A DNA stretch of 44,552 nucleotides, from positions 1 to 44,552 of the forward strand of contig JACNLP010000040.1 of assembly GCA_014381465.1 (NCBI GenBank). The letters run 5' to 3'. How positions within the stretch are numbered: position 1 is the first letter of the stretch; every line of letters starts with the position of its first letter. Positions 12,264 to 16,719 of this stretch are shown piece by piece. The notes under the pieces were generated by a model, which had not been told where the DNA came from, did no database searches, and worked only from the letters and a program-made list of their open reading frames with translations. This DNA is from Flavobacteriales bacterium. Lineage in GTDB: Bacteria; Bacteroidota; Bacteroidia; Flavobacteriales; BACL11. Made by a program: the position numbers and the translations under genes.

Positions 12264-13547
12264 ATGAAAAATAAAAAAGCAATTAGCTTACTTTTTCTTT
12301 CCAATATTATTTCTGGTTTTGCACAAGGAATCAGTATGATTGCAATTCCTTGGTATTTTGTGGAGGTTATTGGCAGGCCTGAAGTCTTTGCCTCTGCATA
12401 CTTAATTATTACTTTTGTTACTTTATTTTGGGGATTATATGCAGGAGCTTTAATTGATAGATATTCTAGAAAAAAACTTTTTATTCTCATCAATTTAGTT
12501 TGTGGAATTATTGTTGGAGGAGTTGCAATTTCTGGATACCTTACTAATACTACAAACGATTTATTAGTAATTCTCGTTTTTGCAATTACCATTTTCAACT
12601 ACAATGTACATTACCCTAATCTTTATGCTTTCGGACAGGAAATTACCGAGAAAAAACATTATGGAAAATTAAATTCGTACATAGAAATTCAGGGGCAATC
12701 TACAAGTATTTTGGCAGGAGCATTTGCTGCTCTTTTGCTTACTGGAACTATAAATAAAACCATGAATTTGGGTGGCTTTATCATTACTTTCCCTTTTGAT
12801 ATTCATCCATGGAAAATTCATGAAATATTTTTGATGGATGCTATTACTTATATGATAGTAATCCTGATTTTTATGCAAATAAAATATAGCCGAATAGTAA
12901 CAGATAAAATAGAAATGGGTACTTTGTTTTCTCGATTAAAAAGTGGTATTCTCTATTTAAAAAAGAACTCTCTTATTTTTCATTTTGGGCTATCATCTTA
13001 TATGCTTTTTGCTTTTCTACTGGTAGAAATTCATATTTTATTACCTACTTATGTTCATGATTTCTTAGAAGGAAAGGGTGACATTTACGCTTCAGCAGAA
13101 GTATATTATTCACTTGGTGCAATTTTGGCTGGTGTATTTGTTATTCGTTTTTTCAGAAAGAAAAACTCGATTTTTGGCATTATCCTTTTAATGCTTATTG
13201 TGTCTTTCGCTTTTGTTGGAATGGCTTTTATTAAATCGCTTTGGTACTTTTTTATTGCAAATCTTATTTTAGGATTAACCAATGCAGGAGTGAGAATCCT
13301 TAGAACTACTTATCTTTTTAATCATATTCCTAACAATATAATCGGTCGAACAAATTCAGTTTTTAATTCCTTAAATATTATGGTTCGGATGTGCTTGATA
13401 GGACTTTTTGCAATGCCCTATTTTCTTACAAATGACAATGTGCGTTGGGGTTATTTGGTGGGAGCTGTAATGATAATTTTAGCTATTGTTCCTTTGCTAT
13501 TACACTATAAATCTCTAATAAACCTAGAAAAATTGGAAAGCAATTAG
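12264..13547 (+). CDS. Major facilitator superfamily transporter
   Basis: A 427-residue inner-membrane transporter with about 12 hydrophobic helices in two halves. The loop between helices 2 and 3 reads YAGALIDRYSRKKL, a form of the MFS motif A (G-x-x-x-D-R-x-x-R-K). Helix 1 begins SLLFLSNIISGFAQGISMIAI. It most resembles MFS permeases of the MdtH/EntS-like or macrolide-efflux type, but the substrate cannot be read from sequence. The gene is monocistronic. Its TAG stop interlocks with the stop of rng on the other strand (four shared bases). Only the ATG at 12264 gives a full first helix. Confidence 0.85.
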   Translation: MKNKKAISLLFLSNIISGFAQGISMIAIPWYFVEVIGRPEVFASAYLIITFVTLFWGLYAGALIDRYSRKKLFILINLVCGIIVGGVAISGYLTNTTNDLLVILVFAITIFNYNVHYPNLYAFGQEITEKKHYGKLNSYIEIQGQSTSILAGAFAALLLTGTINKTMNLGGFIITFPFDIHPWKIHEIFLMDAITYMIVILIFMQIKYSRIVTDKIEMGTLFSRLKSGILYLKKNSLIFHFGLSSYMLFAFLLVEIHILLPTYVHDFLEGKGDIYASAEVYYSLGAILAGVFVIRFFRKKNSIFGIILLMLIVSFAFVGMAFIKSLWYFFIANLILGLTNAGVRILRTTYLFNHIPNNIIGRTNSVFNSLNIMVRMCLIGLFAMPYFLTNDNVRWGYLVGAVMIILAIVPLLLHYKSLINLEKLESN

Positions 13548-15073
13548 CTTTTTACAATACTATATTGTAAAAGGTGTAACCTTTCATCAGGAGTAATTTG
13601 AATAAATCGTTTATATTTCAAACTCCATTTCATTCCTTTTGAGAGCATCCCTTTATTTATATGGCTTGCAATAAAAGGGTGGGTTGAAATTCTTATTTTC
13701 CCATTGCTAGATTTTTCAACTATATTTTTAATTTTATTTTCAATAGTATCAATAAGCAGTAAGCTAGAATCAATTTTTCTATTTCCAACACACATTGGGC
13801 AATTTTCTCTAGTATCAATATTCATTTCTGGGCGAACCCTTTGGCGTGTAATTTGAATAAGACCAAACTTTGAAGGAGGTAAGATATGATGTTTTGCTTT
13901 ATCCCCCTTCATTGCCTCCCTCATCTTTTCAAAAAGAGATTTTCGGTTTTTCGCATTATACATATCGATAAAATCAACTACAATTATCCCACCCATATCT
14001 CGTAAGCGGAGTTGCCGAGCAACCTCTTCTGCTGCTGATAAATTTACTGCTAAAGCATTTTCTTCTTGGTCTTTTTTTGCATCTACTTTTTTACCAGAAT
14101 TTACATCAATCACATGCATTGCCTCTGTATGTTCAATCACAAGGTAAGTTCCATTTTTCATATTTACAGTTTTTCCGAAAGCTGCCTTTATTTGTTTGGT
14201 TACATCAAAATTTTGTAAAATTGGGGTTTTGCCTTTATAAAGCTTCAATATTTTTTCATGTTCGGGAGCAATGCTCATTAAATAATCTTTTAGTTCTAAA
14301 AATAACTCTTTATCATTTACATGTATGCTATTAAAACCCTCATTTAGAATATCTCTTAAAATAGCGGTGGAACGATTCATTTCTTTCAAAATCATCTGTG
14401 GTGCTTGTGCCATTTTAAGTTCTTTAAAAACATTTTGCCATTTTTTGTATAAAGCCTTAAGGTTAGAGTCTAATTCTTCTACTTTTTTACTCTCTGCAAC
14501 CGTCCGCACAATTACCCCAAAACCTTGTGGTTTGATGCTTTGTAAAAGGCGTTTTAGTCGTACTTTTTCTTCTTGTGATTTTATTTTGTTCGATAAAGAT
14601 ATTTTATTAGAAAATGGAAGTAAAACCATGTTCCTCCCTGCAATTGATATTTCGGTAGTTAATCTTGGTCCTTTAGATGAAATTGGCTCTTTGGATACTT
14701 GCACCAAAATTTGATCCCCTGATTTTAGAACATCTGTAATTTGCCCTGATTTTTCAATCTCTTTTTCTTTTCTGAAATTTTTTAATGAAGCAGTATTACT
14801 TTTTTTTGCAATTATTCTCTCTGTAAATTTCTTATACGAATTTACATTAGGGCCTAAATCAAGATAGTGTAAAAATCCATCTTTCTCATGTCCTACATTT
14901 ACAAAAGCAGCATTAAGTCCGGGCACTACTTTTTTTACTTTCCCTAGATATATATCGCCAACTGAGTAGCTATTATTGTTGTTTTCTTTATGAAGTTCAA
15001 TTAGGTGTTTATCTCGCAAAAGTGCGATTACTACCTCAGATGGCCTTGAATCGATTATAAGTTCGAATTTCAT
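13544..15073 (-). CDS. rng: Ribonuclease G/E family endoribonuclease
   Basis: A 509-residue RNase G-type enzyme that cuts single-stranded, AU-rich RNA and takes part in rRNA maturation and mRNA decay. The N-terminus (FELIIDSRPSEVVIALLRD) is followed by the S1 domain at about 36-125 (GDIYLGKVKKVVPGLNAAFV). The catalytic metal-binding aspartates are D323 (HVIDVNSGK) and D367 (IVVDFIDM). The zinc-link is CPMC (425-428). The long C-terminal scaffold of RNase E is absent, so G-type is the better call. Upstream on the same strand, 35 bases away, is a 29-residue basic protein gene and then HU. The 3' end overlaps the MFS gene by four bases. Confidence 0.93.
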   Translation of the reverse strand: MKFELIIDSRPSEVVIALLRDKHLIELHKENNNNSYSVGDIYLGKVKKVVPGLNAAFVNVGHEKDGFLHYLDLGPNVNSYKKFTERIIAKKSNTASLKNFRKEKEIEKSGQITDVLKSGDQILVQVSKEPISSKGPRLTTEISIAGRNMVLLPFSNKISLSNKIKSQEEKVRLKRLLQSIKPQGFGVIVRTVAESKKVEELDSNLKALYKKWQNVFKELKMAQAPQMILKEMNRSTAILRDILNEGFNSIHVNDKELFLELKDYLMSIAPEHEKILKLYKGKTPILQNFDVTKQIKAAFGKTVNMKNGTYLVIEHTEAMHVIDVNSGKKVDAKKDQEENALAVNLSAAEEVARQLRLRDMGGIIVVDFIDMYNAKNRKSLFEKMREAMKGDKAKHHILPPSKFGLIQITRQRVRPEMNIDTRENCPMCVGNRKIDSSLLLIDTIENKIKNIVEKSSNGKIRISTHPFIASHINKGMLSKGMKWSLKYKRFIQITPDERLHLLQYSIVKS

Positions 15074-15108
15074 GGCTTGTATGATTAAAGATTAATAGAA
15101 AAAAAAGA

Positions 15109-15198
15109 TTACTTACTTTTATGTCTATTTTTTCTCAAACGCTTCTTGCGTTTGTGAGTGGCCATCTTATGTCTTTTTCTTTTTTTTCCGCTTGGCAT
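15109..15198 (-). CDS. AURKAIP1/COX24 (mS38/bS22-like) small basic protein, probable ribosomal protein
   Basis: A 29-residue protein: MPSGKKRKRHKM followed by ATHKRKKRLRKNRHKSK, 18 of 29 residues being Lys, Arg or His. It lines up without gaps with the COX24/AURKAIP1 motif and with actinobacterial bS22. The pattern is a basic run, Met, two or three residues, a K-x-x-K run, Leu-Arg and a final Arg. Members of this family (mS38 in mitochondria, bS22 in mycobacteria) sit in the small ribosomal subunit close to the decoding region. Position between hup and rng, next to genes for RNA metabolism, fits a ribosomal role. It could instead be another Bacteroidota-specific small ribosomal protein. It is below most gene-calling length cut-offs. 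The function is inferred from sequence pattern only. Confidence 0.8.
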   Translation of the reverse strand: MPSGKKRKRHKMATHKRKKRLRKNRHKSK

Positions 15199-15247
15199 TA
15201 TTTAATATTTTAATTTCTTTTACTCAGATTTTTTATTCTGATTATTT

Positions 15248-15532
15248 TTATTTTATGCTTTCTTTTACCTGTTTTACAAATACTTTTGCAGGTTTAAAAG
15301 CAGGAATATGGTGTGCTGGTATAATAATAGTAGTGTTTTTTGAAATATTTCTTCCTGTTTTTTCAGCTCTCTTTTTTGGTTTAAATGTTCCGAAACCTCT
15401 TAAAAATACTACTTGATTATTTGTAATAGAATCTTTTACCTCAGCCATAAACGCTTCAACTACAGCAAGTGTTGTTACTTTTTCAACTCCTGTTTTCTCC
15501 GAAATCTTTCTTATTATTTCTGCTTTTGTCAT
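15248..15532 (-). CDS. HU/IHF-family DNA-binding protein
   Basis: A 94-residue HU-type nucleoid protein. The helical dimerisation part is MTKAEIIRKISEKTGVEKVTTLAVVEAFMAEV. It is followed by the beta arm, with RGFGTFKPKKRAEKTGRN and the DNA-intercalating proline in IPAHHIPAFKPAKVF. The IPAHHIPAF wording of the arm is typical of Bacteroidota HU. It has a leader of about 60 bases with its own -7 element at 15594-15601. The AURKAIP1-like gene and rng follow on the same strand, probably partly cotranscribed. Confidence 0.95.
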   Translation of the reverse strand: MTKAEIIRKISEKTGVEKVTTLAVVEAFMAEVKDSITNNQVVFLRGFGTFKPKKRAEKTGRNISKNTTIIIPAHHIPAFKPAKVFVKQVKESIK

Positions 15533-15593
15533 TACTTGATTATTTTATTTGATATTAATATAAATAAGTTTATTCTTGTTTTTTAATAGCCTG

Positions 15594-15601
15594 CAAATAT
15601 A
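15594..15601 (-). promoter_or_regulatory. -7 element of the HU gene
   Basis: On the minus strand TATATTTG is followed by CAGGC. It is an exact TAnnTTTG match, with the TTTGCAG extension shared with the rplM and tRNA-Phe promoters. A clear -33 TTTG is not seen at the right distance. Confidence 0.55.
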
Positions 15602-15675
15602 TCAACTATTTTTGAAAGAAGTTGCACGAATAATAGTCTTTTTTTATTAATTATTAATTTAGTATTCAATCGTTT

Positions 15676-16719
15676 ATGAGTTTTTCTCTGAAAATTATTG
15701 ATTGGTTTACAAAAAACAAGAGAAGTTTACCTTGGAGAAATAGCAAAAATCCATACAAAATATGGCTTTCTGAAATTATTCTACAGCAAACAAAAGTGGC
15801 ACAAGGGCTTCCCTTTTACAACAAATTTATTTGTAATTACCCTACTGTTGCTCATCTAGCTAAGGCTACAGAGAATGAAGTCTTAAAATTATGGCAAGGA
15901 TTGGGATATTACTCTAGAGCAAGAAATCTTCATTATACTGCAAAGGAGATTGTTAAAAAATATAATGGAGTGTTCCCAAAAGACTATAATACCATTTTAA
16001 AACTAAAAGGAGTTGGCACTTACACAGCATCAGCTATTTGTTCTTTTGCCTATAATCTTCCCTTTGCAGTGGTAGATGGAAATGTGATTCGGCTATTAAG
16101 TAGATATTTTGGCATTGCCACCGCATTTGATAGTAGTGATGGTAAAAAAGAGTTTCAACTTTTAGCACAAAAACTCCTAATTAAAGATAGTGCTGCAGAA
16201 AATAATCAAGCAATAATGGAATTTGGAGCTCTACAATGCACGCCAAAATCTCCAAATTGTAACATTTGCCCTATGCAAAATAGTTGTTTTGCTTTTAATA
16301 ATCATTTAGTTAATGAGTTACCAAAAAAATCAAAGAAACTTAAAATTAGAAAAAGATATTTTGAGTTTTTAATTATTAATGAAAATAAAAAATTAGCAAT
16401 TCAAAAAAGAAAAAACGGAATTTGGAAAGGACTTTATCAATTTCCACTTATTGAAAATACTAACGAAACAACAGAAAATACAATTATACAATCAAAAGAT
16501 TGGAAAAATTTATTTAATAACAAAGCTACTAATATCATGAAAATATCCTCAACTATAAAGCACCAACTTACACACCAAACAATTTATGCACGATTTTGGC
16601 ATATTAGTACAAAGCCAATTCTGCTAAAAAATACCGATTACATCCGAAAAGAAGATATAAAAAAGTACCCTATACCAAAACTATTAGAAAAATATCTTGA
16701 AAAAATTGGAATGATATAG
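15676..16719 (+). CDS. mutY: A/G-specific adenine glycosylase
   Basis: MutY, 347 residues, removes adenine mispaired with 8-oxoguanine. Catalytic E33 lies in LSEIILQQTKV. The helix-hairpin-helix is LKGVGTYTASAI (about 110-121), and the conserved aspartate D134 is in VVDGNVIR. The four iron-sulfur ligands are C188, C195, C198 and C204 in the canonical C-x6-C-x2-C-x5-C spacing. The C-terminal MutT-like 8-oxoG recognition domain (about 225-347) is present (KNGIWKGLYQFPL). It is full length, diverges from HU, and heads the mutY-ssb-gldE-gldD cluster known from Flavobacteriia. Confidence 0.96.
   Translation: MSFSLKIIDWFTKNKRSLPWRNSKNPYKIWLSEIILQQTKVAQGLPFYNKFICNYPTVAHLAKATENEVLKLWQGLGYYSRARNLHYTAKEIVKKYNGVFPKDYNTILKLKGVGTYTASAICSFAYNLPFAVVDGNVIRLLSRYFGIATAFDSSDGKKEFQLLAQKLLIKDSAAENNQAIMEFGALQCTPKSPNCNICPMQNSCFAFNNHLVNELPKKSKKLKIRKRYFEFLIINENKKLAIQKRKNGIWKGLYQFPLIENTNETTENTIIQSKDWKNLFNNKATNIMKISSTIKHQLTHQTIYARFWHISTKPILLKNTDYIRKEDIKKYPIPKLLEKYLEKIGMI

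Follow-up and report, generated by a model that had tools for sequence, protein, structure and literature searches.

The window analyzed here, a 44,552-nucleotide stretch of Flavobacteriales DNA, contains an open reading frame of 29 codons between a gene for an HU-type DNA-binding protein (hup) and a gene for an RNase E/G family protein (rng), and the question that this locus raises is whether so short a frame is a gene and, if so, what its product does. The initial annotation had placed the frame at exactly the right position between HU and RNase G and had taken it for a probable unlisted ribosomal protein of the AURKAIP1/COX24 type. Read on the minus strand, the frame has its ATG at 15198-15196 and its stop codon at 15111-15109, and both neighbors, identified by their Pfam domains, lie on the same strand (Table 1). 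The hup gene is the sole PF00216 (HU) match in the source genome.

Table 1. Coordinates of the bS22 gene, the features around it and the viral copies (window positions unless a viral contig is named)
Feature	Position	Strand	Details
bS22 coding sequence	15109..15198	minus	29 residues + stop, product MPSGKKRKRHKMATHKRKKRLRKNRHKSK
hup, HU-type DNA-binding protein	15248..15532	minus	PF00216, 1.8e-25; upstream neighbor of bS22
rng, RNase E/G family	13544..15073	minus	PF10150, 6e-97; downstream neighbor of bS22
TATATTTG, -7-box-like	15594..15601	minus	~60 bp before hup; resembles Bacteroidota -7 promoter box
Inverted repeat TCAGA-N8-TCTGA	15224..15241	minus	in hup-bS22 gap, without T-run; weak evidence
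Viral bS22 (apparent), contig L289	3342-3434	+	231,285 bp contig, product MSGAKKKKKIKIATHKRKKRSRKDRHKTKR
Viral bS22 (apparent), contig L290	9109-9201	+	297,623 bp contig, product MSGAKKKKPSKISTHKRKKQSRKNRHKTKK
Viral bS22 (apparent), contig L295	8820-8912	-	18,050 bp contig, product MSGAKKKKSSKISTHKRKKQSRKNRHKTKK

Identity of the encoded protein and its probable place on the ribosome

A search of PDB sequences with the window protein returned three chains only, all of which align without gaps over their full or nearly full length: a chain of 9I5V named 'AURKAIP1/COX24 domain-containing protein' (E = 3.5e-10), chain 5 of 7JIL (E = 1.5e-9), which is the ribosome of Flavobacterium johnsoniae (PMC9723584), and Borrelia bS22 from 8FMW (E = 1.8e-5). 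These matches bear out the proposal of an AURKAIP1/COX24-like ribosomal protein, and the gapless alignment to the mS38/bS22 motif on which it was based is right, although the formal match to the Pfam model falls below the cut-off. As bS22 of the Bacteroidota/Borrelia type we counted Lys/Arg-rich proteins of ~28-31 residues that have K-x-x-THKRKK as their core and RHK close to the C-terminus. Across Bacteroidota and Borrelia the invariant core is K-x-x-THKRKK...RHK, and the window protein has every invariant column. We are thus nearly certain that 15109-15198 encodes ribosomal protein bS22 in a Flavobacteriales-like member of the Bacteroidota, and that its product would lie as a bent helix in a pocket of the 16S rRNA. 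The protein is already known and has been solved in Bacteroidota ribosomes, so that the copy in the window is an ordinary orthologue.

The F. johnsoniae protein (7JIL chain 5) aligns over all 29 residues and shares the core MPSGKKRKRHKxATHKRKKR; it differs from the window protein by M12V, L21A, K23A and S28K and is one residue longer. A Flavobacterium-type locus (L015) that encodes the 7JIL chain 5 sequence also has the order hup-bS22-rng. Borrelia burgdorferi bS22 (8FMW chain V, bb0822), likewise solved in the ribosome, aligns without gaps over 27 residues but belongs to a different phylum, begins with MPCGRKRKLKK and has a published GUG start. The window's genus (L001-L004) has retained the widespread bS22 N-terminus MPSGKKRKRHK, whereas in other genera of its family (L020-L030, L101-L105) the N-terminus has diverged to MSGAKKKKxxK or MPGDKKKKRTK. 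The PDB labels for this protein are inconsistent, with one 30-residue sequence (7JIL_5, 9OZ9/9OZN/9OZZ/9P0E) deposited both as '30S ribosomal protein S22' and as '50S ribosomal protein L38'.

Published structures place F. johnsoniae bS22 in the pocket that holds bS22 in mycobacteria and mS38 in mitochondria, and bS22 is regarded as the bacterial counterpart of mS38 and an analogue of eL41 (PMC10618245; PMC10085706). The pocket is formed by h2, h27, h44 and h45 of the 16S rRNA, with a further contact to 23S helix H68 (PMC10618245) or H67 (PMC10085706). Mycobacterium smegmatis and Cutibacterium acnes bS22 are, according to published work, short basic bent helices in the identical 16S pocket, and mS38 (AURKAIP1/Cox24) in mitochondria and eL41 in the cytosol have an analogous helix and site, although mS38 is a longer protein. 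The density near h44 that the initial annotation proposed to look for in Flavobacterium 70S maps has already been assigned.

By analogy with these structures of close relatives, from which the position and the contacts are taken, we infer that bS22 would sit at the same ribosomal position in the source organism. There, the very Lys/Arg-rich peptide would fill, as a bent helix, the 16S pocket beside the decoding-center helix (h2, h27, h44, h45), would reach 23S H67/H68 to provide an extra intersubunit contact, and would stiffen the 30S neck and upper h44. Its role is most likely structural, and it may affect decoding or subunit joining. In yeast mitochondria that lack mS38, initiation on particular mRNAs is disturbed, and h44 is thought to be freed (PMC6582356).

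Against the Pfam model PF08213 (COX24_C), the window protein scores 13.2 bits (E = 0.083) in register over residues 3-27, which is below the gathering threshold of 23 bits, so that the match that the initial annotation had proposed as a check is in register but weak. Sequences of the F. johnsoniae type, from Borrelia and from other Bacteroidota do not reach this cut-off either, indicating that the COX24_C model misses this branch. No NCBIfam family matches the window protein. The description of the protein as unlisted is correct for the annotation libraries but not for the literature, in which bS22 has been published. A ribosomal protein that is present in nearly the whole phylum yet has no working family model will be missing from gene lists and ribosome inventories, and a Bacteroidota/Borrelia profile would mend this gap in annotation.

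The low COX24_C score is also what would be seen if the window protein were a ribosomal protein of separate descent that shares its pocket with actinobacterial bS22 and mS38 by convergence of short basic helices. C. acnes bS22 has only about 37% identity to the F. johnsoniae protein (PMC10085706), and a search of the PDB with a Bacteroidota profile matched only Bacteroidota-type and Borrelia chains and found no actinobacterial bS22, those of M. smegmatis and C. acnes included, and no mS38 chains. Nevertheless, the pocket is identical, the structures can be superposed and the COX24_C match, though weak, is in register, all of which makes separate descent improbable. Far less probable still is that the peptide is translated but acts mainly off the ribosome, as a cationic DNA- or RNA-binding or antimicrobial peptide that is perhaps tied to HU. 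The peptide is indeed highly basic and its gene adjoins that of HU, and free C. acnes bS22 inhibits both bacterial growth and cell-free translation (PMC10085706); however, near-identical proteins are built into 70S structures, the helix residues are conserved, and the gene keeps its place beside rng across the Bacteroidia.

Conservation of the gene and its neighborhood

In pairwise comparisons of 29-codon copies, the rates of difference at codon positions 1, 2 and 3 are 0.13, 0.10 and 0.45, so that third positions vary at roughly four times the rate of the other two. Within the genus, pairs of copies differ synonymously at 3-4 codons and non-synonymously at 0-1, except for one pair that is identical at every codon. 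The frame shows the substitution pattern of a coding gene on which purifying selection acts, and it thus has the codon-level conservation across relatives that the initial annotation had asked for.

The same frame, which the initial annotation had suggested looking for between hup and rng in other Bacteroidota, is widespread there. Protein searches matched bS22 in 38 of 40 relatives and in all 24 of those of good quality (completeness of 90% or more, contamination no higher than 5%), and a match is present in 288 of 296 genomes sampled across the phylum. At 80 loci of named genomes, gathered by DNA pattern, the gene immediately after bS22 is rng in 74, and hup precedes bS22 in 70; when only loci with a long enough flank are counted, these figures are 63 of 65 and 39 of 40, respectively. 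The order hup-bS22-rng is conserved among Bacteroidia relatives, and the window locus conforms to it. In many relatives the distance between HU and bS22 is wide enough for an extra gene, and the order is hup-bS22-rng with a spacer gene after hup in some. The frame at 15109-15198 is a real gene that exceeds chance: a fortuitous AT-rich, Lys/Arg-rich frame in the hup-rng spacer, for which one could cite that 29 codons alone are not improbable and that Pfam and NCBIfam make no call, is refuted by the codon bias, the near-phylum-wide presence and the fixed gene order, and its probability is negligible.

The gap between hup and bS22 is 49 bp, and the ATG of rng lies 35 bp past the bS22 stop. No terminator-like site was found in 13400-15800, and so none lies between hup and rng. 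A MutY-like gene at 15676 is divergent from the three genes, which are probably co-transcribed as one operon. The consensus of the Bacteroidota -7 promoter box is TAnnTTTG; the TATATTTG box ahead of hup is possibly the promoter of this operon, although such boxes are no more common than expected by chance (6 matches in locus L001 compared to 5.6 expected).

Neither protein nor profile searches detected bS22 in the genomes G184, G232 and G236 of one genus (g124) or in G264, G311 and G323 of another (g104), which are nearly complete and belong to classes other than that of the window. Profile and pattern searches of the bS22-negative genomes were empty; since the pattern also missed the known carriers G118, G188 and G226, these results fall short of proving loss. 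It is possible that bS22 has been lost or has strongly diverged in g124 and g104, and the protein may not be strictly universal in Bacteroidota.

Leaders of the bS22 gene

The initial annotation had linked the protein to the disregard of Shine-Dalgarno sequences by Bacteroidota ribosomes. This link is unsupported, the published cause being bS21, bS18 and bS6 (PMC9976891). Of 59 loci that belong to classes of the phylum other than Bacteroidia, 75% have a Shine-Dalgarno-like leader (GGAG, GAGG or AGGA) before bS22, compared to 15% of neighboring ORF starts. Leaders outside the Bacteroidia (L108-L157, L159-L167, e.g. L143, L144, L156 and L163; L220) are often strongly Shine-Dalgarno-like, down to approximately -17 kcal/mol. 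Among placed loci of named Bacteroidia, none of 62 has such a leader, nor does the window gene; the cases in named genomes are two Ignavibacteria/Chlorobiota MAGs and one unplaced Bacteroidota MAG. We considered autoregulation of bS22 through a Shine-Dalgarno sequence, by analogy with rpsU, and rejected it, given that the leader follows lineage and is missing from these 62 loci and from the window gene. In the rpsU (bS21) gene of the source genome (contig C16, 29482-29640; L168), a strong Shine-Dalgarno sequence is not evident ahead of the start codon (TTTAAAAAAAGAAT-ATG), whereas the literature describes one for rpsU in most Flavobacteriales.

Two other candidate signals were set aside. Stems of a hairpin between hup and bS22 are somewhat longer than those of shuffled sequences in the genus and family but not in named Bacteroidia, which is too weak an effect. 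The AT-rich motif TTAA[CT]N0-9TAAA, picked after the data were seen, is present in 39% of bS22 leaders of named Bacteroidia (L170-L248), compared to 5% of other ORF starts and 10% of shuffles; it was rejected as a leader signal because it is post hoc and the loci are related.

Apparent virus-encoded copies

The window gene itself matters little, being a known protein that annotation libraries have overlooked; the copies worth following are viral. Searching IMG/VR for the bS22 core yielded three contigs (Table 1), to which two further patterns added none. These are uncultivated assemblies. The two long contigs, L289 and L290, contain large terminase genes (Pfam Terminase_6N, 2.5e-9 and 3.1e-5) as well as bS21 genes above the cut-off. 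The short contig, L295, contains a phage lysozyme gene and a minor-coat-protein-like gene (phrog_1644), the end of which overlaps the start of bS22. Neither HU nor RNase G was found beside bS22 in the stretches read of the three contigs.

Three viral contigs appear to carry bS22, much as viruses are known to encode other ribosomal proteins such as bS21 and bL12, and as far as we have found this is new. S22 is absent from the main text of a survey of ribosomal proteins in viruses (PMC6375957), and we found no report of phage-encoded bS22 among the titles and abstracts of the limited literature that could be searched. No bS22 was found in INPHARED phages, and none of the actinobacterial type in viral contigs. 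If the assignment is true, these would be the first bS22 genes to be reported from viruses.

Among bS22 sequences, those of the bacterial family to which the window belongs are the nearest to the three viral proteins. All three begin with MSGAKKKK, a start seen in that family but not in the window's genus, and because this start is shared we believe that the viral host is probably a member of the family. A tentative scenario, to which we give somewhat less than an even chance, is that bS22 is an exchangeable ribosomal protein, that large phages infecting the window's bacterial family have acquired its gene along with that for bS21, and that they insert the protein into host ribosomes so as to favor viral translation. 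With viral copies, bS22 would become a candidate means for phages to retune the ribosomes of their hosts, joining phage bS21, which is already proven. The bS22 genes of L290 and L295 differ from one another by 9 synonymous codons and 1 non-synonymous codon, a pattern that fits selection on the protein.
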